A stretch of 64,000 nucleotides of DNA from Waddliaceae bacterium (GTDB lineage Bacteria; Chlamydiota; Chlamydiia; Chlamydiales; GCA-2709385): the NCBI GenBank assembly GCA_002709385.1, contig PAQS01000047.1, positions 1 through 64,000 on the forward strand. Reading direction: 5' to 3'. Of this stretch, positions 2,797-41,766 are shown piece by piece. The stretch's first letter is position 1; each line of letters opens with the position of its first letter. The position numbers and the translations under genes are program-made. The notes under the pieces are model-generated. The model was not told the DNA's origin and did no database searches. It saw nothing but the letters and a program-made list of their open reading frames with translations.

Positions 2797-3201
2797 TTAT
2801 AAAATTTGCAAACCAAACATCTCCTCCTGCTCATTCCATAGCAGCGGCACGTTATTCATCAGATCGGCGAGTTTAAGGTGCCGTGGTTGGGTACCATCGA
2901 TAATTGCCTCTTTTAATTTTGGTGCTAGAAAATTAAGGCGCAAGATTAGCTGCGCATATTTGGCGGTGATGGACTCACGTTCGCATAATTCTTTCATACC
3001 GCTATATTTTCCAGACTTTAATTGTCGCTGCCACAGATGGGCTTTAACAAGGGCTTTAAGCAAAGTCATATCAACGCCAGAATCATCAGCTGGTGGTTGC
3101 ACGCCTTCTGGTGCTAATACCATTTTGCGGCCACCACGTTTTTTTAATTTTAACGGCATAAATACAGACATTTCGCCATCTTTAATGCTGGTTTCAATCA
3201 T
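2797..3201 (-). CDS. Recombinase-associated helix-turn-helix protein
   Basis: This 134-residue protein starts inside the stop of the serine recombinase (ATGA overlap at 3198-3201). It has a basic KLKKRGGRK segment near residue 18 and then an HTH-like stretch (ELCERESITAKYAQLILRLN) followed by FLAPKLKEAIIDG. In many proteobacterial serine recombinases, as I recall, an equivalent segment forms the extreme C-terminus of the recombinase itself. Here it is a separate polypeptide, probably a DNA-binding partner. The gene ends 20 bases from the stop of the multicopper oxidase, convergently, so it marks the left edge of the phage. Confidence 0.75.
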   Translation of the reverse strand: MIETSIKDGEMSVFMPLKLKKRGGRKMVLAPEGVQPPADDSGVDMTLLKALVKAHLWQRQLKSGKYSGMKELCERESITAKYAQLILRLNFLAPKLKEAIIDGTQPRHLKLADLMNNVPLLWNEQEEMFGLQIL

Positions 3202-4499
3202 GCCATTACCTCATCTTGCGTTTCTAAAACCAGACTATGCAATCCTTCTTGGTTAATTCTAACATCAACACCATCGGTGCCAACTAGCACAGTGCGGATT
3301 AAAGTCTGGATAATTTTTTGTTGTTCTATTGGAAATAAATTTTGCCATACGCCATCAATATCTTTTAGAAGTTCAAATACCTGTGCTTTATTAAGACCAG
3401 CTTGTTCTAGCAATATACTGGTTTGTGCTACAATTTCTGGGGATTTTAAAATGTGGCGCACTTGTTTAATAACAAAATGCTCAACCTCACCTGCGGCTAA
3501 ATAAGAGCCAATTCCATTACAATCTTTGCCTCTGAGCACATTACTGCAAACATAATAGCGGTACTGGCGATTTTGCTTGGCAGTATAGGTGGGCGTCATT
3601 GGTACATTACAAGCAGAACATTGGATCACGCCTTTTAATAACATCGGCGCTTTACCAAAGGCTGAGTTACGTTTGGGCGCCTTTTTAAAAGTCTCTTGCA
3701 CCTGGTCCCATAGTTCCTGGCTAATAATTGCATTATGTAAACCATCAAATAATTTTTCTTTATGCCGAATTTTACCCATGTAAACAGGATTGGTTAGAAT
3801 GCGCCGTAATGATGCTTTGGTGAATTTAGCCCCACCAATGAGCTTGCCGTTTTTAGTGGTAAATTGCTTAGTTCTATGGCCTTCGTCGTTTAATTCTCGG
3901 GCTAAATGCGTAGCTGATGCCAGCACTAAAAATCTTCTAAATATATGCTCAATTAAATTTTGATCTTTCTGATTAATAATTAATTTGCGGTCAATGATGT
4001 CATAGCCAAGTGGCGGATTACCACCCATCCACATGCCTTTTTGTTTAGAGGCTGCAAATTTATCGCGGATCCGCTCGCCTGTTAATTCTCTTTCGTACTG
4101 CGCAAAGCTTAATAATACATTGAGCATCAATCTGCCCATAGAATTAGCGGTATTAAAACTTTGGGTAACCGATACAAAAGTTACATTGTGCTGATCAAAC
4201 AAATCGACAATTTTAGCAAAGTCCAATAGCGATCTAGATAGCCTGTCTATTTTATAAACAATAACACAATCTATTAAACCGGCGGCAATATCTTCAAATA
4301 ATTGCTGCAAGGCTGGGCGCTCTAAGGTTCCACCGGAAAAGCCGCCATCATCGTAGAGCTTATCAATTATTTGCCAGCCTTCATGTTGCTGGCTCTTGAT
4401 ATAGTTTTCACCGGCTAAACGCTGGGCATCTAAGCTGTTAAATTCTTGCTCTAATCCTTCCTCATGGGATTTTCTGGTATAAATGGCACATCTAGTCAT
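3198..4499 (-). CDS. Large serine recombinase (phage integrase)
   Basis: This 433-residue protein has the resolvase N-terminal domain with catalytic Ser11 (YTRKS), the second active-site block DRLSRS at 85-90 and the ERE-R helix near 137-143. A recombinase domain follows (LRRILTNPVYMG at about 231-242) and then a zinc ribbon with Cys294, Cys297, Cys318 and Cys327. These enzymes integrate and excise phage DNA at short attP/attB sites through a Ser-linked intermediate. The gene sits three bases after the DUF2924 gene and is coupled to the downstream HTH gene. No recombination directionality factor was recognised. Its position at the left end suggests an attachment site nearby. Confidence 0.95.
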   Translation of the reverse strand: MTRCAIYTRKSHEEGLEQEFNSLDAQRLAGENYIKSQQHEGWQIIDKLYDDGGFSGGTLERPALQQLFEDIAAGLIDCVIVYKIDRLSRSLLDFAKIVDLFDQHNVTFVSVTQSFNTANSMGRLMLNVLLSFAQYERELTGERIRDKFAASKQKGMWMGGNPPLGYDIIDRKLIINQKDQNLIEHIFRRFLVLASATHLARELNDEGHRTKQFTTKNGKLIGGAKFTKASLRRILTNPVYMGKIRHKEKLFDGLHNAIISQELWDQVQETFKKAPKRNSAFGKAPMLLKGVIQCSACNVPMTPTYTAKQNRQYRYYVCSNVLRGKDCNGIGSYLAAGEVEHFVIKQVRHILKSPEIVAQTSILLEQAGLNKAQVFELLKDIDGVWQNLFPIEQQKIIQTLIRTVLVGTDGVDVRINQEGLHSLVLETQDEVMA

Positions 4500-4502
4500 A
4501 AA

Positions 4503-4949
4503 TTACGCAGCGCCTCTTGTTCTTAATCCAAAAAACAACGGACCATTCCAGCGGGTGCCGGTAATTCTTCTGGCAATTGCAGATAATGATTTATAGGTTT
4601 GCCCGCGATAGACAAATCCATCTTCTGCTACCAGAACCTCATAATTAACGCCTTGGTATTCGCGGATCAATTTAGTGCCAACAGCAGGCTTACCATTTAG
4701 CATATGATTTGAAAATTTCTTGCCCTTTTCCATTTGGTTAGCCATAGCATCTAATGTGGCAGCAGGCTTTTCTGTCATCGGGCCATAGGCTAATTCCTGC
4801 AAGCGATGGGCTAGCCGTGGGATTAGGTAATTCTTCTGATATGGTGGTGCAGGTTCATCAAATAACTGCTGCCATAATTGCTTCAGTTCTTGTATGGGCT
4901 GATTTTGTAGTGCCAGCACCTGCTTTATTGTTGACGATTTTTTATTCAT
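4503..4949 (-). CDS. DUF2924 family protein
   Basis: This 148-residue basic protein has the family pattern LKQLWQQLFDEPAPPYQKNYL near residue 23 and a C-terminal block with YRGQTYKSLSAIARRITGTRWNGPLFFGL. The C-terminal block looks like a small DNA-binding domain that recognises a short track through YxSLSAIA. Its function is unknown. It is repeatedly found upstream of phage serine recombinases, including those of Wolbachia phage WO (recalled). It is the first gene of the leftward integration cassette. The start ATG follows a short purine stretch (GAGGTGAT) that serves as ribosome binding site. Confidence 0.85.
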   Translation of the reverse strand: MNKKSSTIKQVLALQNQPIQELKQLWQQLFDEPAPPYQKNYLIPRLAHRLQELAYGPMTEKPAATLDAMANQMEKGKKFSNHMLNGKPAVGTKLIREYQGVNYEVLVAEDGFVYRGQTYKSLSAIARRITGTRWNGPLFFGLRTRGAA

Positions 4950-5018
4950 ATCACCTCAAATAGTTGGTTTACTTCAATTTTGGCTCTACAGTAACGCTTC
5001 ATTTCGGAGAAAAGTCCA

Positions 5019-5227: not shown

Positions 5228-5257
5228 TTGACTATCCTAACAAATGTTAGGTAAGAT
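5228..5257 (+). promoter_or_regulatory. Repressor promoter with palindromic operator
   Basis: TTGACT at 5228-5233 is a near-consensus -35 box and TAAGAT at 5252-5257 a plausible -10 box, 18 bases apart. Between them lies CCTAACA-AA-TGTTAGG (5236-5251), a 7+7 bp perfect dyad with a 2-base centre. An operator inside the spacer of the promoter of a LexA-like gene is the classic arrangement for autorepression. No second copy of this dyad was found elsewhere in the window. Confidence 0.6.
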
Positions 5258-5288
5258 AAAATGGTGTTTGAAAAAAGGATTTATCTTG

Positions 5289-5975
5289 ATGACTAAGGAT
5301 GCGCATATGAAACCAGGACCTAAACCCACGGTGGGTCTAACTCAGGCCCAGCGAGAAACCATGCGGGTTATCCGCCAATATCAACAGCAGCACGGCATGT
5401 CGCCGACTGTGCGCGATGTTGCTGATGCTAGGGGTATCAAAAGCTCTAGTGCTATTGAAATCATCCAGCAGCTGGAATCTAAGGGCCATCTCAAACGCGG
5501 TAAAGGCAAAGCTCGGGCTATTGAACTGATAGAGCCAGTAACGTCTATGCCTGTGATTTCACAGGTGGTACCGGTTGAGATTTTAGGCCAGGTAGCAGCT
5601 GGTCACCCAATACTTGCGATAGAAGACAGACGTGGTGAATTTCTAGTGGATACAACAATTGCCAGAGGTCATTGTTTTGCACTGGAGATCACAGGCGACA
5701 GTATGATTGATGCGGGTATTGATGATCGGGATTTTGTGATTGTGCGCAGCCAAGAGACGGCGATAAATGGTGAGGTTGTTATTGCTTTATTGGATGATGA
5801 TGAAGCAACCTGTAAAACTTTTTATAAGCTGGATCGGCACATTGAGTTAAAGCCTGAAAACAAGGCTTATCCGGTTATTGTTGTCCCACCGGAGCGGCCA
5901 TTTAAAATTCTAGGGAAGGTAATTGCAATTCGAAAAACGGAGGTTAAATATGCAAACGGCAGTGGTAACAACTAA
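5289..5975 (+). CDS. LexA-like S24 repressor (probable lysogeny/SOS switch)
   Basis: The protein has an N-terminal winged helix (about residues 20-75, with MSPTVRDVADARGIKSSSA) and a C-terminal S24 self-cleavage domain. The cleavage bond is Ala104-Gly105 (QVAAGHP), the nucleophile Ser138 (GDSM) and the general base Lys176 (ATCK). All LexA catalytic parts are present, so DNA damage (RecA filament) should trigger autocleavage and induction. A reading frame from 5244 would start inside the operator, so ATG 5289 is chosen. ATG 5307, preceded by AAGGA, is an alternative start. It most likely represses the prophage as well as its own promoter. Confidence 0.88.
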   Translation: MTKDAHMKPGPKPTVGLTQAQRETMRVIRQYQQQHGMSPTVRDVADARGIKSSSAIEIIQQLESKGHLKRGKGKARAIELIEPVTSMPVISQVVPVEILGQVAAGHPILAIEDRRGEFLVDTTIARGHCFALEITGDSMIDAGIDDRDFVIVRSQETAINGEVVIALLDDDEATCKTFYKLDRHIELKPENKAYPVIVVPPERPFKILGKVIAIRKTEVKYANGSGNN

Positions 5976-7200
5976 CTTTCAAATAACGCCAAGTCGCAGG
6001 TTCTGGGAGCATGATTTGGAACTATCTATTGAAAGGTTAATGACAGAATATAGTGATGTTTCATCACGGCAAAATTGGATTGAATCTTTATCTGGCAGGC
6101 AGCTTACCGTGTTGTATGCTGCAAGTAACGATCTGGATTTTACCCAAGAGATACCGCTTTCTAAGATGCGGCAAATGCTAGTGGAAAAGTCAGAACAGCT
6201 ATTTGATTACTATCTGGTGAACCGCTTTAACCATGCAAAATTAGAAACCGCTGTATCTGATATTGCCAAAGAAATTTTAAGTGATGAGTTGCTTGAATTC
6301 TGCCTTGTGAAGAATAACAAATACGATAAGAAATCACTGCTATTTGCTTTGTTTAAGCAAAAGCCAGATGCGCTTAAAAATATTTATCACTATGACAAAA
6401 TTCACAAAAAAGGTTTTGCAGCTTTTGTGCTGATGAATCCACCAAGGCAACGTGAGCTTAATTTTGCTGAATTTGTTTTATCATCCCCAATAACTAAAAT
6501 TTTAGAAAAATACGATGCAAGTTTAGGCGATGGCTTTGAGAGCACCTTGCAAGACGTCTTTTTGCATAACGATAGATTGTACTTATTTATTCGCCGGGCA
6601 AGTGATGAGGATGTGCTGCTAAACTGCGATCAGCTATTGCATGGGCATAAACCGGAATGGACTATTATTGATTTTGCAGCCAATGGAAACCAGGTTAATA
6701 TCTGCGCTAAATGTCCGCAAAAATCAGTGTTTATTACCAATGCCTTAGTCAGCGATTATTTTGGCAAAGAGCTAATATTTGTTGATGCCAGTGATGTGAA
6801 TTTTAGCAGGCAGGTTGAGCGCTTTATTCGCCATAGTGCATCGCATCAGGCTGATGAAATCAAATTATTTGAAATTAGGTTTCGATCGCCATATTTGCAC
6901 AACAATACCGAGATTGTGATCAGCACCTGCCCGCATGATTCTATTGCTGAGGATTTGCAAGCAATTCAAGCAGCGGTTGGTGATATTTTAGCTGATATTA
7001 CTGCAGTGGATTCCATCAAGGTCTTGTATAAAAATAAGCGCATTACTCTGTATTTTAGGTGTTTGGATGAGGCATGCGATCATATCCGCATCTGTTACTC
7101 AGAGCATGTGCTGGATAAAAATGCTAGGGAAGCTTTTAAATCATGGATGAGGACAACATATGGGCTTAAGGTATTACCAAAAGCAAGGTGCTGCTACTGA
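5950..7200 (+). CDS. Unrecognised protein encoded behind the LexA-like repressor
   Basis: This 416-residue protein starts at ATG 5950 after a GGAGG ribosome site and overlaps the end of the repressor gene by 26 bases. It is therefore co-transcribed with it and probably induced with it. I do not recognise the family. The N-terminal half is helical and charged. The C-terminal half carries several Cys/His pairs (ICAKCP, STCPHD, CLDEACDH) that could bind zinc, and beta-rich segments. It runs opposite to the replication operon. Possible roles include defence, anti-repression or DNA transactions, but nothing visible decides. Its partner gene follows with overlap. Confidence 0.7.
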   Translation: MQTAVVTTNFQITPSRRFWEHDLELSIERLMTEYSDVSSRQNWIESLSGRQLTVLYAASNDLDFTQEIPLSKMRQMLVEKSEQLFDYYLVNRFNHAKLETAVSDIAKEILSDELLEFCLVKNNKYDKKSLLFALFKQKPDALKNIYHYDKIHKKGFAAFVLMNPPRQRELNFAEFVLSSPITKILEKYDASLGDGFESTLQDVFLHNDRLYLFIRRASDEDVLLNCDQLLHGHKPEWTIIDFAANGNQVNICAKCPQKSVFITNALVSDYFGKELIFVDASDVNFSRQVERFIRHSASHQADEIKLFEIRFRSPYLHNNTEIVISTCPHDSIAEDLQAIQAAVGDILADITAVDSIKVLYKNKRITLYFRCLDEACDHIRICYSEHVLDKNAREAFKSWMRTTYGLKVLPKARCCY

Positions 7201-7345
7201 TGCGATTAAAGCATTAATTATGCACCAGGGATCGTGGGTAGATTTAAATCAGGAATATCAAAATGCACTGATGATTTTGCAGGAAAATAATTTTGCACGC
7301 TCGCATTCTAGCTGCTTTGTTAAACTACAATCAGCGCGATGTTGA
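7160..7345 (+). pseudogene. 5' part of the following gene, out of frame
   Basis: ATG 7160 has a good ribosome site (GGATGAGG, 7-base spacing) and overlaps the upstream gene by 41 bases, as expected of an operon start. The frame reads about 45 residues that look like a small winged helix (AIKALIMHQGSWVDL, NALMILQENNF) and then runs into unrelated sequence. The sensible continuation (RILAALLNYNQRDVEDL) lies in the +1 frame opened at 7293. The switch falls near the runs AAAA (7283-7286) and TTTT (7290-7293), so one base has been lost or gained, or the site shifts frame during translation. Confidence 0.5.
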
Positions 7346-8303
7346 AGATTTAAAATTTGTCAGCAATCATGACTGCCATAACCAAATTTATATTGAGCCT
7401 GATTTTGATGAGGATTGTGATGATTTGGTTTGTGATAGCTGTGGCCGGTATATTCTGCCAAATACCCATAGCAAGCAACGATTTGTTGAAACCTCCGTAG
7501 AGCTAAATTACAAGGTCTTTGAGAAATTTATCGAAGACAGTATGCGCCAACAAGAAATAGCTTTTCATAGGCTATCTACAGGCATTTATGCTGTTATGAG
7601 CCCGCATGGTCTTGCAACTATTGTGGTGATGGATCTCTGTAATGATTATCGTTATTTAACAGTGGATAAGCTAAAGGCCAGTCCAACACTATTGTTAAAT
7701 ATTCGAGATAAATTGCCTAAAACCGGGCTAGAGGTACAACGACTATCGGTTGCTGATTTTGTTGTAATGCCGGAAATCTTAGCAGATAGTATTATGGCCA
7801 CTTGCAAACAAGGTGTTGCTGATAATTTACCAAACCAATCGGCCAGCATATTAACATTTCCAGCAATTAACTTGGCAGAGCCAAAGCCTGCATCAGAAGA
7901 AAAATACCTGGAAATTAAGATTAATGATGCCGGTGTGAGTATCAATGATATTGTGGTTGTTGGCAGGCAAGCCAGTTCTCGATTATTAATTTTTCGTTTG
8001 CTGCTAGAGCAATATTGGCAGGATTTTGAGGTCGCTAAACCACCCGAGCAACATAGTTTTCTCAACATGAATCAGCTATCTGATTTGATGGAGCCACATG
8101 TTGGTATGGTTAATGATTTGGAGCAACAAATTAGGCGGCCATTAAATAAAATGCAGAAAGTGATCCAGGATATTTTGGCCAAAGAGTTGGGGTTGCCCGT
8201 CCAGCGTCATGATGTCATCGAAATGCGCGGCTGGCCAGGCTGTAATAACAAACAAGAATTTGGCTATCGCTTAAACCCGCATACCTTACTTTTTAGAAAG
8301 TGA
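7293..8303 (+). CDS. Unrecognised Cys/His-containing protein (main part of frameshifted gene)
   Basis: This is an open frame of 336 residues whose only early start codon is TTG at 7293, without a ribosome site. It is best read as the body of the gene begun at 7160. A candidate zinc site near the N-terminus has HDCH followed by CDDLVCDSCGRYI. The C-terminal 70 residues (from about QQIRRPLNKMQKVI) resemble a winged-helix DNA-binding domain. The family is unknown. It ends convergently with the primase-helicase gene, overlapping by 18 bases. Together with the upstream gene it forms a two-gene unit controlled from the LexA-like promoter. Confidence 0.6.
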   Translation: MHARILAALLNYNQRDVEDLKFVSNHDCHNQIYIEPDFDEDCDDLVCDSCGRYILPNTHSKQRFVETSVELNYKVFEKFIEDSMRQQEIAFHRLSTGIYAVMSPHGLATIVVMDLCNDYRYLTVDKLKASPTLLLNIRDKLPKTGLEVQRLSVADFVVMPEILADSIMATCKQGVADNLPNQSASILTFPAINLAEPKPASEEKYLEIKINDAGVSINDIVVVGRQASSRLLIFRLLLEQYWQDFEVAKPPEQHSFLNMNQLSDLMEPHVGMVNDLEQQIRRPLNKMQKVIQDILAKELGLPVQRHDVIEMRGWPGCNNKQEFGYRLNPHTLLFRK

Positions 8304-10307
8304 AGCAGCATCTAGCCATTTTTGCTCTTTACTATCACTACTGGTTGTTTTGGTTAGCAACCCTTCAGCAAGCAATTCATTAGCCAATGCCTCTATCTTA
8401 TGACGGCTCAAAGTATGTAACTCTACCGGCAAGCGTGCACGCTGTTTAAAAAGCCCAGGCTCACCTGTATGCGTAAATGGTACGCCATCACTTGCAGCAT
8501 CTTTAATCGCCTCAATCAATGTTTGTTTTAAATAATCAGGAGAAAACCCACCTGTTGGAACAAAAACACCATCTTGCCATTCCAGATTTAGATCTTCTTG
8601 CATAGGGCCATAGTTTGATTTTTTACGGCTTAAAATTCTAGTATTGCCATTTTCCTGATTAGAGGCCCTAGAAAAATACCAGCGCGATCTAACTGTGTTA
8701 TTCCAAGCAGTAGAGCCACCTGTGCCAGTTTTGCGCTGAATACCAGAATCAGATGGATGGGCGCAAAGTAAAACAGCACCATTAATGGCGCGGGCAATAC
8801 GAGCACAGCAATTTTGCACAAACTGGCGAACTTGAGAGCGATTATTTTCATTACCGCCAAATAAATCAGCAACCGTATCTAAAATTACTAAATCTGGTTT
8901 GAAAGATTTAATGTCTTCAAGTAATTTCTGATAAAACATCGTGAGCTGGCCTGCATCTTTGCCATCGAAAATCATTAATAGATTATCAGCGCCAACTCTT
9001 GAAATCATACGTAGATTATCTGTTAAATCTGACATTTCCACATCAAAATAGCTGTTGATTGCATGTTGCCTGCGCCATAATTCTTGCTCGTCATCTTCAC
9101 AAAGCAGCGCATAAACTTTTGCTTGCTGGATGGGTAAATTAAGCCAAGGTGAACCTGTTGCAACGGCTGTCATCAGTTGTTGTGATAGCAGAGATTTGCC
9201 AACACCACCATCGCCATAAATGGCCGTAACATAACCTTTAGGCAGCCATTCTTTTATCACCCAATTACGCTCTGGCGGCAGTGCTTGCCAGTTACAAAGA
9301 TCAATAGCTTCAATGTTAGATCGTTTTATTACCTCTTTTTTGCTGGTGCGGATAAATTCTCTTAGATTTGTTTTTTCAGCCAATGCATCTGCCGCATCCC
9401 AGCCTTTAGGTTTATCGGTAGGCGGCAGGATAATAGCAATTGATGCAACATGTGGTTTTAAAAATTCAGCTAATTGTTTGGCGTAAGCAATACCAGGCTC
9501 ATCATTATCAGGCCAGATGGTTACATGCTTTTTATAAAGAGGTCGCCAATCGGTTTTATCTAACGGCGCATTAGCACCAAACATTGCAGTAGTTGCGGTA
9601 ATGCCTGATTTAATTAAAGCATCTGCTGATTTCTCTCCTTCAACTATCATGATATTTCTGGATTTGATGATATTGGGGATATTATACAGTGGCCTGATAT
9701 CAGGTGCGCGGTGGCTACAGCTTTTCACGTCCCAAGGTCGATATTGTTTGCCACGCTTGGTTTCATAGCGGTACACGCAAGCTATAATCTTTTCATTTTC
9801 ATCATAGTAATCCCAGCGCGCTGTTGGTTGGCCTAATAAATTATCTTGGCATAAATCTTTTAAATCATTGCTGTCATATTCTTGTAGCCTTTCTCTTATT
9901 TCTCTGTCTTCTTGGTAAGTGCGTGTTCTAATACCAAGCCAATCAGACATGTCGTTAATAAGCTCAGGGAAATCATATTTGGTATCACGCCCGGTAACCG
10001 CTGCCCAAAGGCCAATAATGTCGCCACCTTCGCCGGTTGCAAAATCATGCCACATACCAGCCTTATCACCAGAGATATCAATAACCAAGCTTTCGCCCAT
10101 ATTGCCTCTAATATCACCCACATAAAATTTGTTGTTTTTAAAAACACCACCTGGCAGTAGATAAGATAGCACCCCGCTTAAATTACTAATCAAACGCGCC
10201 TTAATTTCAGAGGTGGATTCTGAATGACCCATCATCTGAGAGACATATTGTGGCGCTGCTTTGTTTAGATCGAACCATTCCTTAAAATCAATAATATTGT
10301 CTGTCAT
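8286..10307 (-). CDS. Phage primase-helicase (Toprim + RepA-like ATPase)
   Basis: This 673-residue protein has a primase-type N-terminal region (about 45-110: WHDF, GGDIIGL), a Toprim domain from about residue 215 (MIVEGEKSADAL, then WPDND) and a RepA/DnaB-like ATPase with Walker A GDGGVGKS at about 365-372 and Walker B LVILDTVADLF. The C-terminus is winged-helix-like. It should prime and unwind phage DNA at the replication fork. ATG 10307 overlaps the stop of the nuclease gene (ATGA) behind a GGGAG ribosome site, so it is preferred over ATG 10322. It is the last gene of the leftward replication operon. Confidence 0.88.
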   Translation of the reverse strand: MTDNIIDFKEWFDLNKAAPQYVSQMMGHSESTSEIKARLISNLSGVLSYLLPGGVFKNNKFYVGDIRGNMGESLVIDISGDKAGMWHDFATGEGGDIIGLWAAVTGRDTKYDFPELINDMSDWLGIRTRTYQEDREIRERLQEYDSNDLKDLCQDNLLGQPTARWDYYDENEKIIACVYRYETKRGKQYRPWDVKSCSHRAPDIRPLYNIPNIIKSRNIMIVEGEKSADALIKSGITATTAMFGANAPLDKTDWRPLYKKHVTIWPDNDEPGIAYAKQLAEFLKPHVASIAIILPPTDKPKGWDAADALAEKTNLREFIRTSKKEVIKRSNIEAIDLCNWQALPPERNWVIKEWLPKGYVTAIYGDGGVGKSLLSQQLMTAVATGSPWLNLPIQQAKVYALLCEDDEQELWRRQHAINSYFDVEMSDLTDNLRMISRVGADNLLMIFDGKDAGQLTMFYQKLLEDIKSFKPDLVILDTVADLFGGNENNRSQVRQFVQNCCARIARAINGAVLLCAHPSDSGIQRKTGTGGSTAWNNTVRSRWYFSRASNQENGNTRILSRKKSNYGPMQEDLNLEWQDGVFVPTGGFSPDYLKQTLIEAIKDAASDGVPFTHTGEPGLFKQRARLPVELHTLSRHKIEALANELLAEGLLTKTTSSDSKEQKWLDAASLSKK

Positions 10308-13603: not shown

Positions 13604-13604
13604 T

Positions 13605-14635: not shown

Positions 14636-14706
14636 AACGGCTCCCTGTTTGGTTTCTTTCAAGAATGCCGAGAACGGCGAAACTTCAGCAGGGACGCTAA
14701 CTTTTC

Positions 14707-28573: not shown

Positions 28574-28607
28574 TTGTTGATTGCAATTTTAACATTGAGG
28601 GTCATTC

Positions 28608-29291: not shown

Positions 29292-29305
29292 GGAAGAGAT
29301 CGCTT

Positions 29306-31327: not shown

Positions 31328-31330
31328 ATT

Positions 31331-32557: not shown

Positions 32558-32757
32558 TGCCAAACGATAATAGCCAAAGACAATATCCGCTGCCACATCC
32601 TGAGAATATTGCTGTAACGGATGTTAGCCGAATTCGTGAATCAATTATCAAAATTGATGTGGACGTATCAACGCAAGAATCGGAACATAATGAACTGAAG
32701 ACGCAAGTCGAGCGGATGCGTTTTGAACAATATATCGGATTATGGAGCACGCCGTGA
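32557..32757 (+). CDS. Small phage tail-region protein
   Basis: This 66-residue protein starts on the stop of the previous gene. Its second half is a charged helix with heptad character (RIRESIIKIDVDVSTQESEHNELKTQ, broken over two turns), suggesting a short coiled coil. Its family is unknown. Compact overlaps on both sides support that it is real. Confidence 0.6.
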   Translation: MPNDNSQRQYPLPHPENIAVTDVSRIRESIIKIDVDVSTQESEHNELKTQVERMRFEQYIGLWSTP

Positions 32758-33899: not shown

Positions 33900-33908
33900 G
33901 AGGGGTTT

Positions 33909-34499: not shown

Positions 34500-35661
34500 A
34501 CAATTTTTACATGGCGTTGAAGTTATTGAAGTATCCTCTGGCCCACGCACCATTCGTACTGCTAAATCTGCTGTAATTGGCGTTGTTGGTACCGCACCGG
34601 ATGCTGATAGTAGTTTATTTCCACTAAATACCCCGGTGCTGATTATTGGTAATCGTACTGAAGCTGCAAAGCTTGGATTAACGGGTACACTACCAGAAGC
34701 TGTTAATGCTATTTTTGATCAAATCGGCGCTTTAATTGTTGTGGTGCGGGTTGCAGAAGGTGTTGATAGCGATGAAACAACTACTAATATTATTGGCGGC
34801 GTAGATAGTGAGACCGGCCAATATTTAGGCTTACAAGCTTTTTTAAGCAGTGAAAGTATCACCCATGTTACTCCAAGAATTTTAATTGCGCCTCACTATA
34901 CTCATGATCGGCCTGAAGGCAATGCTAATCCGGTTGTAACCGCCATGATTCCAATTGCAGAGCGTTTACGTGGGGTGATTGTCGCTGATGGGCCTAACAC
35001 TACCGATCAAGATGCCATTACCTGGCGCACTGATTGGGGCAGCAGTCGTGTTTTTATTGTTGATCCATGGGTTAAATCCTATAACGATGTTGAAAAAGCC
35101 GTGCCTGCTAGCCCTTATGTAGCCGGTTTAATTGCCAAAATTGATAATGAACAAGGCTTTTGGTGGTCGCCATCTAATCAGGTTGTTAATGGCATTGTTG
35201 GTACAGTACGTCCTGTTGATTTTGCTTTAGGCGATCCAAATACGCGCGCTAATTTCTTAAATGAAAATGAGGTGGCTACTATTATTCGCCAGGATGGTTA
35301 CCGCTTATGGGGCAATAGAACTTGTTCTAGCGATCAGAAGTGGGCCTTTTTATCGGTTAGACGCACGGCAGATTTAATTCACGATAGCTTGCTTAGAGCG
35401 CATCTATGGGCTGTTGACCGTAACATTAACCGCACCTATTTGGATGATGTAAAAGAAAGTGTTAATGCGTATCTTGCTCATTTAAAAGCAATTGGCGCAG
35501 TACTTGGTGGCGAGTGTTATCCCGATCCTGATTTAAATACGCCAGCTAATATTGCTCAAGGAAAAGTGTATTTTGATTTTGACTTTACACCACCTTATCC
35601 TGCTGAGCGCATTAGTTTCCGCTCGCATTTGATTAACGATTATATCAAGGAGCTGCTCTAA
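34492..35661 (+). CDS. Contractile tail sheath protein FI
   Basis: This 389-residue protein is of the P2 FI type: FLHGVEVIEVSSGPRTIRTAKSAVIGVVGTAPDAD at the N-terminus, TPRILIAPHYTH, PYVAGLIAKID and a C-terminal YRLWGNRTCSS...WAFLSVRRTADLI block. It forms the contractile outer tube, so the phage is a myovirus. It shares its last base with the tube gene. Confidence 0.95.
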   Translation: MAEQFLHGVEVIEVSSGPRTIRTAKSAVIGVVGTAPDADSSLFPLNTPVLIIGNRTEAAKLGLTGTLPEAVNAIFDQIGALIVVVRVAEGVDSDETTTNIIGGVDSETGQYLGLQAFLSSESITHVTPRILIAPHYTHDRPEGNANPVVTAMIPIAERLRGVIVADGPNTTDQDAITWRTDWGSSRVFIVDPWVKSYNDVEKAVPASPYVAGLIAKIDNEQGFWWSPSNQVVNGIVGTVRPVDFALGDPNTRANFLNENEVATIIRQDGYRLWGNRTCSSDQKWAFLSVRRTADLIHDSLLRAHLWAVDRNINRTYLDDVKESVNAYLAHLKAIGAVLGGECYPDPDLNTPANIAQGKVYFDFDFTPPYPAERISFRSHLINDYIKELL

Positions 35662-36161
35662 TGTTACCAAAGATTTTAAAGAACTTCAGTGCTTTTGTAG
35701 ATGGGCGCGGCTATGCTGGCCGGGTTGATGAAATCACCTTACCTAAGCTCAGTATTAAAAACGAAGAATATCGAGGTGGTGGTATGGATGTGCCTATTGA
35801 TATTGATTTGGGCATGGAGAAATTAGAGGCTGAAATTACCTTCTCTGAATATGATCCAGAGCTATTTCGTTTATTTGGCATTATGGATAACAGCACGGTG
35901 AATTTTACATTGCGCGGTGGTTTGCAAGGTACAGGAGATGCTGAGCCTGTTGTTATTAATTTACGTGGCAAAATCAAAGAGCTCGATTCAGGTAGTTGGA
36001 AAGCCGGAGATAAAGCCACCTTAAAATGTATGATTGCTATTTTCTATTACAAACTCACCATTGATCGCCGAGAGCTAATTGAAATTGATGCAGAAAATAT
36101 GATTCGGAAAATTAACGGTGTCGACCAACTATCATCGATGCGCCAAGCTTTAGGAGTGTAA
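35661..36161 (+). CDS. Tail tube protein FII
   Basis: This 166-residue protein is of the P2 FII type: ILKNFSAFVDGRGYAGRVDEITLPKLSIKNEEYRGGGMD at the N-terminus and DSGSWKAGDKATLKCMI near 115. It forms the inner tube inside the sheath. It directly follows the sheath gene, the standard order. Confidence 0.95.
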   Translation: MLPKILKNFSAFVDGRGYAGRVDEITLPKLSIKNEEYRGGGMDVPIDIDLGMEKLEAEITFSEYDPELFRLFGIMDNSTVNFTLRGGLQGTGDAEPVVINLRGKIKELDSGSWKAGDKATLKCMIAIFYYKLTIDRRELIEIDAENMIRKINGVDQLSSMRQALGV

Positions 36162-36163
36162 CC

Positions 36164-36421
36164 ATGACCACAATCACCTTAACTGAAAAAATCACTGTCG
36201 ATAACAAGGATATTCAAGAAATTACGCTAAGGCGTCCTAAAGTAAGAGATCGCTTAGCTGTTGAACGCATGGGGCAAAGTGATGCTGAAAAAGAAGTCGC
36301 ACTAATTGCCAATCTTGCAGACTTACCTAAAGAGACAATAGAAGAATTAGATTTGGCTGATTACAACAAAATCCAGGAGGTATTGCAGGATTTTTTGTTA
36401 GCGTCAGTGCCAAAGACTTAA
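36164..36421 (+). CDS. Tail assembly chaperone gpE
   Basis: This 85-residue product is the zero-frame form of the P2 E chaperone (TLRRPKVRDRLAVERMG, then NLADLPKETIEELDLADYNKIQEVLQDFL). Near its end is the slippery heptamer T_TTT_TTG at 36391-36397. A -1 shift there joins it to a second frame and gives the longer E+E' form. It would bind the tape measure protein during tail assembly. Confidence 0.9.
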   Translation: MTTITLTEKITVDNKDIQEITLRRPKVRDRLAVERMGQSDAEKEVALIANLADLPKETIEELDLADYNKIQEVLQDFLLASVPKT

Positions 36422-36549
36422 GGCGCGCTGTTTTATCCTTGGCAAAGCTAATAGGAGGTGGATTAGAGCAATTTTTAGCAATGGATATTCATGAATTTAT
36501 TGCATGGCATGAAGAGGCAAGAGAGTTAGAGCATGAGCGCAAATCATAA
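36391..36549 (+). CDS. gpE' extension reached by -1 ribosomal frameshift
   Basis: After the slip at T_TTT_TTG (36391-36397) the -1 frame reads about 50 further codons to TAA 36547-36549. The product ends with FLAMDIHEFIAWHEEARELEHE, which is the GpE signature of P2-like tail chaperones (a small domain with WHE/WRE followed by an acidic helix). The frame overlaps the start of the tape measure gene by 17 bases. The slippery site, frame and protein signature agree. No other start codon is needed. Confidence 0.85.
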   Translation, partial: FFVSVSAKDLRRAVLSLAKLIGGGLEQFLAMDIHEFIAWHEEARELEHERKS

Positions 36550-38839
36550 ATTATCAGTTAGCATCGGCGCTGCCCTTAAAAATAGCTTTACTACAGCACT
36601 CTCTAGCAGCACCAAGCAATTAAGCCGTCTTGGCAGCACCATCAAAAAGTTAGAATCACAAGGCAAGTCCATTGCAACATTAGATAAATTAAAACGTGAA
36701 ACCTTAGATGCCAAACGGGCTTGGAATGGAGCAGAATCTGAGGTTAAACAATTAGCCGCAGCACTAAAAACGACCCAAAGCCCAAGTAAAGAATTACAGA
36801 AATCATTTGAAAAAGCCAAGCAAGCAGCGTCAAAATCAAAAGCAGCTTACCTTAAAAAACGCAGTTCACTTGTACAGCTTAGTAATCAAATGCGAAAAAG
36901 CGGCATGGATATGCAAAGACTATCCAGCCAGCAAGTACGCCTTGGCCGCTCTGTTGAAAAATTAAAATATCATTATCAAGCACTCGATCGCATCATGAAA
37001 AAGCGTGACGGTGTTTTAGCAAGGCGCGCTGCTCTTCGTGGTCAAATGTTAGACGCTGTGGCATTGGGTGCAACTTTAGCAGTTCCTTTAAAGGCAGCTA
37101 TTGATTTTGAAAGTGCAATGGCCGATGTGCGTAAAGTTGTAGAATTTGATACGCCTGATGGATTGCAAAAGCTTGGCGCAGAGTTGAAAAACATGTCGCG
37201 CACTATTCCTATTTCAGCTGCTGGTCTCGCACAAATTGCAGCAAGTGGTGGTCAGCTAGGTGTTGCTGCTGAAAATCTAGGTGCTTTTACTGATACCGTT
37301 TCTAAAATGGCAATCGCTTATGACATGTCGGCTGAAGAAGCTGGTAATGCTATGGCGAAACTTGCCAATGTTTATCAAATTCCTATTACCGAGATGAGTA
37401 AATTAGGTGATGCGATTAATCATTTATCGGATAATACCGCTGCTAAAGCCCGTGATATGGTGCCAGCACTCAATATGATTGGTGGTACGGCCAGACAGTT
37501 TGGATTAACCGCAGTGCAATCAAGTGCTTTGGTATCTGCTTTTATCAGCTTGGGTAAAGCACCGACCAAAGCAGGCACAGCCATTAATGCCATGCTCAGT
37601 AAATTACAAACTGCAGGCAAGCAAGGCAAGAAATTCCAAGATGCATTTAAATCCTTAGGACTTGATATCAAAGCCTTTGAAGAGCAGCTCAAAACTGATG
37701 CACAAGGCGCTATTATTTCGTTTTTAGAAACTGTTGAAAAATTAGATAAGCAATCACGCTCTGGGGTGTTGTTTGATTTATTCGGCATGGAATACCAAGA
37801 TGATTTAGCGCTATTGGTGGGTAGCTTAAAAGAATACAAAAAAGCCATTAAAGCAGTGGGCACAGAAGAATCTTATGCAGGCTCTATGCAGCGGGAGTTT
37901 GCGAATCGCGCCGCAACCACAGCTAATAATTTGCAGCTTCTGAAAAACTCATTATCAGAAGTCGGTATTAACCTTGGGAACCTGGTATTGCCAGCGCTTA
38001 ACAGTATTGTAGGCAGCATTCGCGGCATAACCACCACGATGGCAGAGTTTGCCCAAACCTATCCCACAATATCCAAAGTAGTAGTTGGACTTACTGTTGG
38101 CTTAATGGGCCTTAAAATAGCAGCAATTGGTTTAGGGTATGCTTGGACTTTTGTACAAGGTGGCGCTTTAACATTAGCAGCTGCTTGGCGTGGATTATTA
38201 GCCGCTGTTGCGATGGCACAAACGGGGCTGGTTGGATTTAATGCCACAGCCTTGATTACCGCAGCCAGATTAAAGGTTTTAGCTGTAGGTGGTGCTATTA
38301 AAGCCTTTGGTGCATCGCTGATGGGATTAGCATCCAGGGTATTTCCGGCAGTGATTACAGGCTTTAGAGCATTAACCGTCGCACTCATGACCAATCCAAT
38401 CGGGTTAATTGTCGGTGGTTTAGCACTAGCTGCGGGCCTTGTGATTAGTAAATGGGATACAGTGAAAAGTTTCTTCATGAATCTGTGGGAGCCGATTAAA
38501 CCCATCTGGGAATCTTTTATGGGCTTTGTTTCTAAGTTCTGGGATACGATTAAAAAACCACTACAAGCTATTGGTAAAGTTTGGGATTGGATTTGGGGCA
38601 AGGATAAAACTGCTAAAATCGAAGTGGATGATGAAAAAACTATAAAACAAGCATTGGCTCAGCCACTGCAAAACGCATCCTCATTGCCGGTTACCAACCG
38701 TACGCAAAATAATCATTTTAATATCAAAATTGAAACTTTACCTGGCCAAGATACCAGAGCCATTGTTGATGAGGTGATGCGCCGCTTTCAAGCTGAATCA
38801 AGAAGTGCCCTTTATGATCCAATAGGAGCAACGCTATGA
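36533..38839 (+). CDS. Tail tape measure protein
   Basis: This 768-residue protein has a coiled-coil N-terminus (1-160, Lys/Gln/Ser-rich), the P2/TP901 tape-measure core (FESAMADVRKVVEFDT near 190, LAQIAASGGQLGVAAENL, MVPALNMIGGTARQFGL), hydrophobic segments at about 510-640 and an amphipathic C-terminus with repeated W (WEPIKPIWESFMGFVSKFWDTIKKP, over two turns). It sets tail length and is ejected into the cell. It is the longest phage gene and follows E/E'. Confidence 0.95.
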   Translation: MSANHKLSVSIGAALKNSFTTALSSSTKQLSRLGSTIKKLESQGKSIATLDKLKRETLDAKRAWNGAESEVKQLAAALKTTQSPSKELQKSFEKAKQAASKSKAAYLKKRSSLVQLSNQMRKSGMDMQRLSSQQVRLGRSVEKLKYHYQALDRIMKKRDGVLARRAALRGQMLDAVALGATLAVPLKAAIDFESAMADVRKVVEFDTPDGLQKLGAELKNMSRTIPISAAGLAQIAASGGQLGVAAENLGAFTDTVSKMAIAYDMSAEEAGNAMAKLANVYQIPITEMSKLGDAINHLSDNTAAKARDMVPALNMIGGTARQFGLTAVQSSALVSAFISLGKAPTKAGTAINAMLSKLQTAGKQGKKFQDAFKSLGLDIKAFEEQLKTDAQGAIISFLETVEKLDKQSRSGVLFDLFGMEYQDDLALLVGSLKEYKKAIKAVGTEESYAGSMQREFANRAATTANNLQLLKNSLSEVGINLGNLVLPALNSIVGSIRGITTTMAEFAQTYPTISKVVVGLTVGLMGLKIAAIGLGYAWTFVQGGALTLAAAWRGLLAAVAMAQTGLVGFNATALITAARLKVLAVGGAIKAFGASLMGLASRVFPAVITGFRALTVALMTNPIGLIVGGLALAAGLVISKWDTVKSFFMNLWEPIKPIWESFMGFVSKFWDTIKKPLQAIGKVWDWIWGKDKTAKIEVDDEKTIKQALAQPLQNASSLPVTNRTQNNHFNIKIETLPGQDTRAIVDEVMRRFQAESRSALYDPIGATL

Positions 38840-39219
38840 TGCTTGCTTTAGGACCTTATCGGTTTTCCATTAATACCAGCAGCTACCAAACGCTGCGACG
38901 CTCACATAATTACAGATGGCCATCGGTTGATCGCATTGGCAGCAAACCAGCCCTGCAACATGTTGGCAGCGATAGCGGTAGAGTTAGCTTAGATGGCGTA
39001 ATTTATCCCGAAAATACCAATGATCATAGTCAGGTTAATCGCATGCGAGAATCTGCCTCTATTGGTGAGCCACATTTATTGGTAGATGGCAGTGGCTATG
39101 TTTGGGGCAAATGGGTAATTGAAAAAATTGATGAGCAACAAAGTTATTTTTTTGAGGACGGTCGCCCGCGCAAAATTGAATTTCATCTAGAGCTGACCGA
39201 ATATGGAGAAGATTTATGA
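38836..39219 (+). CDS. Tail protein U
   Basis: This 127-residue protein is of the P2 gpU type: LGPYRFSINTSSYQTLRRSHNYRWPSVDRIGSKPALQHVG at the N-terminus and FEDGRPRKIEFHLELTEYG at the end. It helps finish the tail tip. It overlaps the tape measure and X genes by four bases each. Confidence 0.93.
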   Translation: MMLALGPYRFSINTSSYQTLRRSHNYRWPSVDRIGSKPALQHVGSDSGRVSLDGVIYPENTNDHSQVNRMRESASIGEPHLLVDGSGYVWGKWVIEKIDEQQSYFFEDGRPRKIEFHLELTEYGEDL

Positions 39220-39422
39220 TCCGCTATTTTACAAAAGAAAATGATATGGTGGATTGGATCTGCTGGAAACATTATGGCAGGCAATCTGGCGCTGTTGAAG
39301 AAGTTTATGCTGTTAATCCTGATTTAGCTGAATGGGGAAGCTATTTACCTGCTGGCATTATCATCAATCTGCCTGATTTAAGTTTTGATGAAGCTGAAAC
39401 GAACATTAGGTTATGGGATTAG
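39216..39422 (+). CDS. Tail protein X
   Basis: This 68-residue LysM-like protein has the gpX pattern: DMVDWICWKHYGRQSGAVEEVYAVNPDLAEWGSYLPAGIIINLPDL. LysM folds bind glycan, and X joins the tail tube to the hub. It is between U and D as in P2. Confidence 0.92.
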   Translation: MIRYFTKENDMVDWICWKHYGRQSGAVEEVYAVNPDLAEWGSYLPAGIIINLPDLSFDEAETNIRLWD

Positions 39423-39423
39423 C

Positions 39424-40407
39424 ATGAGACCAGATTATGCAATTTGGGCGGATGGCCTGTTAATTACCGGAAATATTCCATCTTATTTGGTTAGTTTGCG
39501 CGTTACAGATGAGGCAGGCATTAAAAGTGATGTTGTGGAAATCACCTTAGATGATAGAGATGGTAAATTACTGCTACCCCATACAGGCACGCATCTTAAA
39601 TTAGCCATTGGTTATCAAGAAACTGGCCTTACCAATTTAGGCGTTTATATTGTTGATGAAATTGGCATTGAATCACCGCCACAGAAAATTACTATCAAAG
39701 GCCATGCAGCTGATTTAAATAAAGCTTTTAAATCACAGCAAACCAAAACCTGGCAGCCCCAAAGCTTGGGTAATATTATCAGCGACATTGCCTCTAAAAA
39801 TGGCTATCAACCGCGTATTGCAGATGAATTGGCAAGCCTTATGATGCCACATTTAGATCAAACCGCTGAGAGTGATATTCACTTTATCACCAGGCTTGCT
39901 AATTTGCATGGCGCTATTGCCAAACCTGCCGGAGGTTATCTTTTATTTGTACCTAAAGACAGCAACAAATCTGTGAGTGGCCAATTATTACAAGTTATAT
40001 CTATTGTTCCAAAAGATAGCAAAGACTGGCGCATTAGCTTTTCCGAACGCAACCATCATGGCGCTGTTGTTGCTGAATATCATGATGTAGATGAAGCCAA
40101 GGTTATTGAAGCTAAAGCCGGTAGTGGCGATCCGATTCATCGGCTTAGAGAAACTTATCCTACCAAAGAGCTTGCAGAGCGTGCTGCAAACAGTGAATTA
40201 AAAAAGCTGACACAAAGTACGGCAACTTTGAATATAACCCTTGTGGGCAATCCAGCAATTGTTGCTGAGAGTAAACTTGTTCTGCAAGGGTTTAGATCTG
40301 GCATTCCAGCGGATTGGACTGTTACCCGCGTAGAGCATGCCATAGAGTCCAGTGGTTTTACTACCCGTGTTACCGCTGAGCATAAACTTGATGAGGCAAA
40401 GCAGTGA
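39424..40407 (+). CDS. Baseplate hub protein D (late control D)
   Basis: This 327-residue protein is of the gpD/gp27 type: RPDYAIWADG, SLRVTDEAGIKSDVVEITLDDRDGKLLLP, then GAIAKPAGGYLLFVPK and a C-terminal WTVTRVEHAIESSGFTTRVTAE. It is the hub on which the gpV spike sits. ATG 39424 starts one base after the X stop. The longer frame from 39385 only overlaps X. Confidence 0.93.
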   Translation: MRPDYAIWADGLLITGNIPSYLVSLRVTDEAGIKSDVVEITLDDRDGKLLLPHTGTHLKLAIGYQETGLTNLGVYIVDEIGIESPPQKITIKGHAADLNKAFKSQQTKTWQPQSLGNIISDIASKNGYQPRIADELASLMMPHLDQTAESDIHFITRLANLHGAIAKPAGGYLLFVPKDSNKSVSGQLLQVISIVPKDSKDWRISFSERNHHGAVVAEYHDVDEAKVIEAKAGSGDPIHRLRETYPTKELAERAANSELKKLTQSTATLNITLVGNPAIVAESKLVLQGFRSGIPADWTVTRVEHAIESSGFTTRVTAEHKLDEAKQ

Positions 40408-40679
40408 GCAGACAGACAAAAGAGCAGTTTGATATAAGACCACGTGATGATTGGCGAATTTCGCGCAAAATATCTGTGGGCATGATTGTAGCGATGCTAT
40501 TGCAATCTTTAACAGCTATTTGGTGGGCTGCTAAACTTGATACCCGCGTAATGGTGCAAGAACAATGGATTAAGCAGAATACCCATCTCTCAGAGCTTGT
40601 ATTTCGTCTGGAAGAAAGAATTATCAGCCTACAAGAAGATATTAACGAATTACAGGAACGGATTAATAATGCCAGATAA
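40404..40679 (+). CDS. Single-span membrane protein with coiled coil (lysis-region)
   Basis: This 91-residue protein has one transmembrane helix (about 24-45, GMIVAMLLQSLTAIWWAA) followed by a charged coiled coil (VFRLEERIISLQEDINEL). The lysis-cassette position suggests a holin-associated or antiholin-like role. It overlaps the hub gene by four bases and the endolysin gene by 11. Confidence 0.6.
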   Translation: MSRQTKEQFDIRPRDDWRISRKISVGMIVAMLLQSLTAIWWAAKLDTRVMVQEQWIKQNTHLSELVFRLEERIISLQEDINELQERINNAR

Positions 40680-41169
40680 TTTTGATGAAAAATTTTTAAA
40701 AGCCGTTGAGGTGATTTTAGATCATGAAGGTGGTTATGTTGATGATCCCGATGATCGCGGTGGTGAAACCAAATTTGGGATCAGCAAACAAAGTTATCCC
40801 CATCTTGATATTCCCGCACTAGATTTAGATGCAGCAAAAGCCATTTATTTTGAAGATTACTGGCAACCAGAGCGATATCATGAAATCCAAGATTTAACTT
40901 TAATCATTAAGCTATTTGATTTGGCCGTCAATATGGGAACCCGTATGGCGCATCGCTTAATTCAGCGCGCACTGCGCTCAGCAGGCCGTGATGTGATTGA
41001 AGATGGTTTATTAGGTCCCAAAACAATTGCTGCAATTAACGCAGTTGATGTTTCTGATTTACTGGCAGCATTAAAATCTGAGGCGGCAGGTTATTACCGC
41101 AGCATTGCAGCAAGCAACCCCAAACAGCGTAAATTTTTAAAGGGCTGGCTGAACCGAGCTTATTCTTAA
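40669..41169 (+). CDS. Endolysin, GH108-type muramidase
   Basis: This 166-residue protein has the GH108 signature HEGGYVDDPDDRGGETKFGIS at 19-39 with catalytic Glu20, then DYWQPERYHEI and FDLAVNMGTRMAHRLIQRAL with a C-terminal peptidoglycan-binding-like repeat (DGLLGPKTIAAIN). No signal peptide is seen, so it depends on the holin. It cuts glycan chains. Chlamydiae have little peptidoglycan, which makes retention of an intact enzyme notable. GGAACG precedes ATG 40669. Confidence 0.9.
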   Translation: MPDNFDEKFLKAVEVILDHEGGYVDDPDDRGGETKFGISKQSYPHLDIPALDLDAAKAIYFEDYWQPERYHEIQDLTLIIKLFDLAVNMGTRMAHRLIQRALRSAGRDVIEDGLLGPKTIAAINAVDVSDLLAALKSEAAGYYRSIAASNPKQRKFLKGWLNRAYS

Positions 41170-41187
41170 ATCTTAAAGGAGGCACTC

Positions 41188-41394
41188 ATGCAAGACACAT
41201 CCATTAACAAACCAGGCATTAAAACCACAGAATTCTGGGCAACCATTTTAGGCACTATTATTGTTGCTGGCGCTTCAGAATTTGGATTAAACATAGCACC
41301 TGCTTCTGCTATTGGGGTTGCTGCTATGATTATTACCTATGTTGCAGGCCGTGTGATTAATAAAAATGCCCAAAATAAAATAGCAAAAAAATAA
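41188..41394 (+). CDS. Holin-like small membrane protein
   Basis: This 68-residue protein has two hydrophobic segments (about 18-34 and 40-58) and a Lys-rich C-terminus (NKNAQNKIAKK), the layout of small class II holins. It lies directly after the endolysin gene with AAAGGAGG upstream. Its role would be to permeabilise the inner membrane for the endolysin. Confidence 0.7.
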   Translation: MQDTSINKPGIKTTEFWATILGTIIVAGASEFGLNIAPASAIGVAAMIITYVAGRVINKNAQNKIAKK

Positions 41395-41621
41395 TGAGCC
41401 CCAAATGGTTGCAAGCTTTAGCCCAAATCATCCGGGAATTAACGCAGACGGTAATTGCCTATTTGCTTGGCAAGGAGCGATTAAAGCGCCAACAAACCGA
41501 AGATGCTTTAGAGCTGCAAGAAACCTATGAAGAGCTGGATGAACAAAATAAAGCTTATCGTGATCGCGGCAAGTCTGGCCTGCTTGAGCGGTTGCGCAAG
41601 CGTCAGAAACCTCCCCAGTAG
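41394..41621 (+). CDS. Rz-like inner-membrane spanin
   Basis: This 75-residue protein has a hydrophobic N-terminal part (WLQALAQIIRELTQTVIAYLL) and a charged helix (ERLKRQQTEDALELQETYEELDEQ). This fits the Rz pattern, though the membrane segment is weak. It overlaps the holin by one base and carries the Rz1-like gene inside it in another frame. Confidence 0.65.
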   Translation: MSPKWLQALAQIIRELTQTVIAYLLGKERLKRQQTEDALELQETYEELDEQNKAYRDRGKSGLLERLRKRQKPPQ

Positions 41622-41766
41622 CTGTCCACAGCATCCTATCTACACCAAAGCCGAATGGCAGCAAATAGAACAGGCGGTAAGCAATCTGCCGCCAGATAGC
41701 CCTCTAATCTCCGTAATGCAGGATTATTTGGATTTATTGGATAAGCTTGAGGTGTGTAATGATTAG
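41527..41766 (+). CDS. Rz1-like outer-membrane spanin lipoprotein, nested in Rz
   Basis: The 79-residue product has a signal peptide with a clear lipobox, LACLSGC, Cys at residue 23 (or 19 from ATG 41539). It begins in the +1 frame within the Rz-like gene and extends past it, the classic Rz/Rz1 arrangement. After the lipobox it is rich in Pro and Cys (NLPSSCPQHP). It would join outer and inner membrane during lysis. It is the last recognisable gene of the phage. Confidence 0.8.
   Translation: MKSWMNKIKLIVIAASLACLSGCASVRNLPSSCPQHPIYTKAEWQQIEQAVSNLPPDSPLISVMQDYLDLLDKLEVCND

Follow-up and report, generated by a model that had tools for sequence, protein, structure and literature searches.

A probable temperate phage of the WO group integrated in an environmental chlamydial genome

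The window analysed here is a stretch of 64,000 nucleotides, bases 1-64000 of contig C47 (PAQS01000047.1; 76,739 bases) in the 3.15 Mb genome of a Waddliaceae bacterium (GCA_002709385.1), which is listed as 97% complete with 0.44% contamination. It contains a block of phage genes whose first open reading frame (ORF) starts at 2797 and whose last ends at 41766 (ORF coordinates on the forward strand of the stretch). We consider this block to be a temperate myovirus, complete and probably functional, of the group of Wolbachia phage WO (proposed Symbioviridae, with Undavirus-like gene content) that is integrated in an environmental chlamydia and whose lineage probably came from intracellular Alphaproteobacteria; we put the probability of this reading at about 0.85.

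Gene content and integration site

Forty-five phage ORFs were scanned with Pfam and 20 ORFs with PHROGs. The ORFs are open and grouped by strand, and integration, SOS-type repressor, replication, packaging, lambda-type head, P2-type contractile tail and lysis modules are all represented; chance matches are ruled out by the very low Pfam E-values of the terminase large subunit (TerL, 6.6e-99), the capsid (1.7e-125) and the tail tube (8.9e-60). By its gene content the element at 2797-41766 is a complete-looking temperate phage and probably a functional one. The integration, regulation and replication genes are as follows; percentages are identities, and the WO references are phage WOVitA1 (KX522565) and the wKue prophage (AB036666).

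2797..3201, minus strand: small recombinase-associated protein (phrog_14161; 45-49% to WO-type loci)
3198..4499, minus strand: large serine recombinase, the integrase (Pfam)
4503..4949, minus strand: DUF2924 protein adjoining the recombinase (PF11149, 1.1e-45; 40-44% to WO; no match in the WOVitA1 stretch compared)
5244..5975, plus strand: LexA-type repressor, S24 peptidase (Pfam; TIGR00498, 168 bits against a cut-off of 110.95)
5923..7200, plus strand: protein common to WO, function not assigned (phrog_21102; 41% to wKue)
7293..8303, plus strand: second protein common to WO, function not assigned (phrog_25990; 33% to wKue)
8286..10322, minus strand: toprim primase-helicase (Pfam)
10304..11005, minus strand: Cas4/YqaJ-type exonuclease (phrog_1990, 8.6e-71; no Pfam match)
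11148..12194, minus strand: free-standing LAGLIDADG endonuclease, intein-like frame (Pfam, PHROGs)
12206..12781, minus strand: phrog_2300 protein, function not assigned (PHROGs)
12785..13663, minus strand: AAA_24 ATPase (Pfam)
14033..14662, minus strand: sigma-like factor (Pfam just under cut-offs; phrog_1740)
15289..15756, plus strand: RuvC-like resolvase (PHROGs)
16358..17629, plus strand: ParB-N / N6-N4 DNA methyltransferase fusion (Pfam)

The LAGLIDADG ORF lies 11 bases downstream of a phage gene, DNA alignments to three related loci (L001, L002 and L257) span it, and it may be a relic intein turned homing endonuclease. The packaging, head, tail and lysis genes follow, all on the plus strand.

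17607..18077, plus strand: terminase small subunit (phrog_57)
18064..19956, plus strand: terminase large subunit, GpA (Pfam; TerL comparisons and tree)
19949..20176, plus strand: small gpW-like head-joining ORF (by position only; WO gpW is at the same place)
20173..21585, plus strand: lambda-type portal (Pfam)
21440..22714, plus strand: S49 head maturation protease (Pfam; the real start is probably more internal)
22711..23082, plus strand: head decoration protein gpD (Pfam)
23054..24088, plus strand: major capsid protein E (Pfam; capsid comparisons)
24394..27364, plus strand: head-tail connector and baseplate module, with gpZ-like, one unknown, gpV, PAAR (25902-26189; PF05488, 1.1e-13), gpW/gp25 and gpJ genes (Pfam, PHROGs)
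27368..34499, plus strand: gpI and tail-fibre module, with BW3TFN, DUF4815 and three more genes (Pfam, PHROGs)
34492..36421, plus strand: contractile sheath, tube and tail chaperone (Pfam)
36533..40407, plus strand: tape measure, gpU, gpX-like (by position only) and gpD hub (Pfam)
40597..41169, plus strand: GH108 endolysin (PF05838, 1.4e-22)
41188-41394, plus strand: putative holin (read from the sequence; PHROGs gave no function)
41394-41621, plus strand: putative Rz-like protein (likewise)
41527-41766, plus strand: putative Rz1-like lipoprotein overlapping Rz (likewise)

The prophage is situated between a multicopper oxidase gene on its left and an efflux operon on its right, and the insertion is intergenic, since matches to the multicopper oxidase extend to its C-terminus and the 3' end of that gene is thus intact. 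Rfam and tRNA scans of the window found no tRNA or Rfam element, and integration at a tRNA gene is therefore rejected. A single shared 9-mer was considered as an attachment (att) core; it lies in coding DNA on both sides and was taken as chance.

Relatives and phylogenetic placement

In the phage collection the best 13 capsid matches are all phage WO records (79-84%), the next listed being a Vibrio phage at 52%, and the best 12 TerL matches are likewise all WO (eleven at 66-70% and one at 52%), followed by Rhodobacter phages at 52%. In a survey of capsids from named genomes, where 80 of 267 confirmed loci were kept, the top loci belong to the alphaproteobacterial metagenome-assembled genome (MAG) MCMED-G24, two lake MAGs labelled Beta-/Gammaproteobacteria, Holospora obtusa and H. 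undulata (86-87%); Wolbachia and other Alphaproteobacteria come after these, and among the same 80 loci free-living Proteobacteria often carry capsid E relatives at 70-75%. The contigs of both lake MAGs lack the length to hold the other genes, and neither is in the four-gene tree below. DNA homology to the Holospora and MCMED-G24 loci spans most of the head and fibre region, and homology to the WOVitA1 and wKue records is 64-73% in stretches of up to 1.7 kb. MAGs from rumen and gut Alphaproteobacteria, from one proteobacterium and from a Holosporaceae bacterium also carry WO-group capsids (L100-L105 and L112); the available text of PMC9203015 does not name these hosts.

The phage is most closely related to a 36-kb viral contig from a metagenome, IMGVR_UViG_3300023214_000730 (loci L002, L011, L177 and L319), to which the replication proteins are 94-99% identical and most structural proteins 71-94% (lowest 61%). 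At the DNA level the corresponding values are ~94% and ~80%, a split suggesting that two phages of the same lineage have exchanged segments in mosaic fashion. The aligned pieces of the viral contig stop at window position 41394, before the chlamydial flank. Most of the phage genes, including the terminase, portal, capsid, recombinase, replication and lysis set, align over their full length with relatives.

The TerL tree was built from the best 62 of 92 rows, with a warning for one long branch, L003, among the free-living rows; rows with insufficient coverage of a gene were omitted from the single-gene trees, and H. undulata is consequently absent from this one. The window falls in a 22-row set (support 96) with H. 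obtusa, Wolbachia, PG1894_72, Holosporaceae and rumen alphaproteobacterial phages, and a separate 36-row set is made up of viral contigs together with phages that come mostly from free-living Proteobacteria, the exceptions being one Nitrospira, one genome labelled Bacteroidetes and one insect symbiont (Dactylopiibacterium). The capsid and sheath trees (best 60 and 45 rows, plus two outgroup rows) agree with this placement, with weaker inner support: the capsid tree has the window in a 26-row group (support 94) and leaves Vibrio phage VHML unplaced, and the sheath tree has a 12-row group (99) whose sole named member is WOVitA1. A four-gene tree of 32 hand-chosen rows, from which duplicate pieces of one viral contig were dropped, was midpoint-rooted, with the free-living rows and the long-branch Acidithiobacillus phage AcaML1 and VHML as outgroup. 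In it the window and the viral contig (L011) are sister to the Holospora-type plus Wolbachia phages (99/97), and all other named-organism rows of the enclosing 20-row set (99/98) are alphaproteobacterial. On the evidence of these comparisons the capsid, terminase and portal have their ancestry in the WO/Holospora lineage, within which the phage would be a third lineage, sister to the Wolbachia and Holospora-type phages together in the four-gene tree. The terminase and capsid phylogenies that the preliminary description had proposed as a check thus group the phage with WO and Holospora phages and not with those of free-living Proteobacteria.

The recombinase, also proposed there for phylogeny, gave a tree (29 rows) that was not used for typing. 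The window joins L257 and then a set without internal resolution that contains the Wolbachia endosymbiont of Tyrophagus and other viral rows; the wKue-type WO recombinases branch separately and WOVitA1 is on a very long branch. Identities are 45-53% to most WO recombinases compared and 84% to L257, and matches in the phage collection include three WO records (45-48%) and AcaML1 (44%). Among the named loci compared, the nearest recombinase (53%) is that of L098, from the Wolbachia endosymbiont of Tyrophagus putrescentiae, whose WO prophage splits off deepest among the Wolbachia rows of the capsid and four-gene trees and has no resolved position in the TerL tree.

The phage shares with WOVitA1 and the wKue prophage its packaging, head and baseplate gene order, its contractile tail and its ParB-methyltransferase (capsid 80-83%, TerL 66-68%), and the wKue prophage also has the serine recombinase, DUF2924 and small partner. 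It differs from WO in its GH108 lysis gene and LexA repressor, in a recombinase only 24% identical to that of WOVitA1, and in lacking ankyrin and patatin genes (none among the 45 phage ORFs by Pfam), so that no Eukaryotic Association Module (EAM) was found. Its tail-fibre genes differ as well: BW3TFN, DUF4815 and a 408-aa gene have no match in the WO stretches compared (50.0 of 65.7 kb for WOVitA1) and are 63-71% identical to Holospora loci. With Undavirus, to which the Holospora prophages belong, the likeness extends to the lack of ankyrins and patatin, to LexA and GH108 and probably to an exonuclease, as compared with the published description only (PMC9203015). The Holospora prophages are nevertheless not joined to the window in the four-gene tree, at TerL identities of 73-81% (81% over 62% of the length) and capsid identities of 86-87%. 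AcaML1 and VHML are similar in head and baseplate gene order, but both are on long branches outside the WO/Holospora clade of that tree.

Symbioviridae, Wovirus and Undavirus are groupings proposed in PMC9203015, and among the papers searched the name Undavirus occurs in that one alone. Of the Symbioviridae features, the phage has the large serine recombinase, the PAAR gene in the connector/baseplate module, all of the recombinase, replication, head, baseplate, tail-fibre, tail and lysis modules, and the nucleotide homology to Wolbachia prophages given above; grouping with WO apart from free-living phages, a criterion of this analysis, is seen in the TerL, capsid, sheath and four-gene trees. 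Infection of symbiotic bacteria may apply as well; what is observed is a prophage within a Chlamydiales genome, known from sequence alone. The Chlamydiales are an intracellular order. The Wovirus features are an EAM, multiple ankyrin proteins and patatin, and membership of Wovirus is rejected because ankyrin and patatin genes are lacking. The resemblance to phage WO that had been described earlier therefore holds as membership of the group, and not as phage WO proper. The Undavirus features present are the absence of an EAM and of ankyrin genes, the GH108 endolysin and LexA; for the YqaJ exonuclease there is a candidate, a Cas4-domain exonuclease recognised by PHROGs with no Pfam match. Common ancestry with the Holospora prophages to the exclusion of Wovirus, again our own criterion, was not found, as the window lies outside Holospora plus Wolbachia. 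With Undavirus-like content and this position in the tree, either Undavirus is paraphyletic or the phage represents a third genus.

The chlamydial host and phage traces in other chlamydiae

The host is a member of the Chlamydiales, since its genome encodes the chlamydia-specific outer-membrane family PF03504 (Chlam_OMP6). This family matches 19 of 43 genomes, including the present one (on contig C19), and none of 14 named controls. The bacterial family whose genomes match most strongly has genome sizes of 1.0-1.2 Mb, and we take it to be the genus Chlamydia; the proteins of one such locus (L173) are presumably OmcB and OmcA, for which an NCBIfam scan returned generic repeat families only. No 16S gene was found anywhere in the assembly. 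The host DNA flanking the prophage contains the following.

618..2777, plus strand: multicopper oxidase gene of the left flank, 3' end intact (Pfam; 47-48% to chlamydial genome G013 through the C-terminus; 41% to the host's own contig C40)
41996..46979, plus strand: CecR/TetR, HlyD, ABC exporter and outer-membrane efflux protein (Pfam)
56591..63252, no strand assigned: gene block collinear with other chlamydial genomes (gene-order comparison)

The flank genes were compared against chlamydial genomes only. At least three genes of the right-flank block are collinear in 9 of the 12 loci compared (8 of 9 genomes), and the other three loci are short pieces centred on one gene and show that gene alone. 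CinA identity (best 44%, full length) was judged non-diagnostic for the host, and gene order was used instead. The end of C47 encodes a SycD/LcrH-like type III chaperone (score under the curated cut-off). The apparent chlamydial genome of the preliminary description is thus upheld by PF03504 and the right-flank gene order, as are its WO-type phage with lambda head, P2 contractile tail and serine integrase by Pfam, PHROGs and identities, and its nearly intact myovirus by the presence of all modules with open frames.

TerL was not found in 66 other genomes of the same order, and DNA searches with both halves of the prophage found no second carrier, two candidates being scored per genome, so that remnants could be missed. 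A genome of a second chlamydial family (G222) has two shards of 68 bp and 125 bp with 94% DNA identity to window positions 19873-20073, which comprise the end of TerL and the gpW-like ORF. The next nearest phage locus compared is 78% identical in this region, and for this reason a phage very close to that of the window probably once left DNA in a second chlamydial family, on the evidence of ~200 bp. A gene on the shard contig, searched within the Chlamydiales only, is present in 36 of 43 genomes, with its best match (47%) in G222's own family. The shards (G222 contig C43, 813-2671) are now separated by a HipA-like gene and adjoin an Mla-type operon, and the ORF beside them is presumably an IS21-type transposase fragment. 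Another G222 contig ends in a TerL fragment (70%).

A cluster of recombinase, DUF2924 and methyltransferase genes in genome G226 was not counted as a chlamydial carrier. It lies on an 8-kb contig (L318, C14) with 57% GC, against 42-44% for stretches of G222 from the same family, a judgement that concerns this contig alone; the contig was probably binned there as a contaminant and would carry a different phage that has the same integration cassette. The contig also holds a terminase-like ORF, identified by reading only. Single short DNA matches (31-41 bp) in G209, G068 and G225 were dropped as uninformative.

Alternative explanations and origin of the phage

If the phage functions as its genes suggest, the serine recombinase with its small partner and the DUF2924 protein would integrate and excise it, and the LexA-like repressor would hold it silent until DNA damage. 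The toprim helicase, AAA ATPase, exonuclease and RuvC-type resolvase would copy its DNA, the sigma-like factor and ParB-methyltransferase would adjust expression or DNA marking, the terminase would pack DNA into lambda-type heads for injection by the P2-type contractile tail, and the GH108 endolysin would lyse the host cell with the holin and spanins. Alphaproteobacteria and Chlamydiota are phyla that diverged very long ago. We infer that the lineage probably reached Chlamydiota from intracellular Alphaproteobacteria, in that direction, and most simply by phage exchange inside a shared eukaryotic cell.

Several observations weigh against the reading favoured here. The whole phage was found in 1 of 232 genomes of the phylum, its own, and capsid E likewise in its own genome alone among 67 genomes. 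No att word of 10 bp or longer is shared between 2501-2900 and 41101-42050, the left host flank is just 2.8 kb, the recombinase is far from that of WOVitA1, and all gene functions are assigned from protein families. The tetranucleotide distance is 0.25-0.29 between phage and host flank and 0.10-0.12 between phage and a Holospora phage locus; such composition fits a recent arrival, and equally a phage-family signature or a chimera. An assembly or binning artefact, in which reads of a phage from a Holospora-like or Rickettsiales symbiont in the sample were joined to chlamydial sequence, would account for the composition, for the single carrier and for nearest named hosts that are mostly Alphaproteobacteria. 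We nonetheless regard it as unlikely, given the chlamydia-type genes on both sides of the phage within one contig, the listed contamination, and the G222 shards, which are closer than any phage locus compared and lie on a contig with a widespread Chlamydiales gene. The possibility of a chimeric contig had been raised in advance, and the chlamydial order on the right, the multicopper oxidase on the left and the shards in a second chlamydial genome make it improbable, though they are not proof.

Slightly less likely still is a defective or domesticated prophage that the chlamydia has retained, for instance as a tailocin or gene-transfer agent. WO-type tail-plus-lysis islands are known in Orientia and Wolbachia (PMC9203015), but here the genes for terminase, portal, capsid, recombinase, replication and lysis all have open frames and mostly align at full length, and a close relative exists as a metagenomic viral contig. 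That an ordinary myovirus of free-living Proteobacteria was acquired, its WO likeness being the broad lambda-head/P2-tail architecture that AcaML1 and VHML share, is highly improbable in spite of the common 70-75% capsid relatives in such bacteria, as the TerL, capsid, sheath and four-gene trees all place the phage inside the WO/Holospora clade.

WO-type phages have been published from Wolbachia, Holospora, Orientia, Ca. Mesenet and aquatic metagenomes (PMC9203015), a paper whose main text has no word beginning with "chlamydia". Among the literature matches listed, judged mainly by titles and abstract openings, none describes an intact contractile-tailed or WO-type prophage from Chlamydiota, which is not proof of absence. 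Tailed phages as such are no novelty in chlamydiae: chlamydial plasmids carry terminase, tail tip protein L and Gp33 genes (PMC7846284, 2021), so the earlier statement that known chlamydial phages are tiny single-stranded DNA microviruses was too strong. The genes described there are plasmid-borne, whereas here a contractile-tailed prophage is integrated. The integrated WO-group myovirus is a known kind of phage, but of a new lineage and in a new host phylum. Its presence suggests that viruses of this sort pass between bacteria that live within host cells and are otherwise very different.

The finding extends the host range of WO-type phages to another phylum of intracellular bacteria, provides an intact outgroup for the Wovirus/Undavirus split, makes gene exchange between unrelated intracellular bacteria testable, and would offer a candidate temperate phage for a bacterial group that is hard to manipulate genetically. 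We give about even odds to the wider proposal that this is a third genus-level WO-type lineage established in Chlamydiota and moving between chlamydial families. On this view the lineage arose when a phage crossed between Chlamydiota and obligate intracellular Alphaproteobacteria, a shared protist being the likeliest setting, and it would then serve as a natural vehicle for bringing DNA into environmental chlamydiae.

The same genome has a second prophage region, of siphovirus type, on contig C40 at ~206-225 kb (L007/L008). It starts beside a zinc-uptake gene and contains a lambda-type portal (N-terminus missing), S49, capsid E, a lambda-like tape measure and tail tip proteins, together with an AbiEi-type gene and RCC1 repeats.

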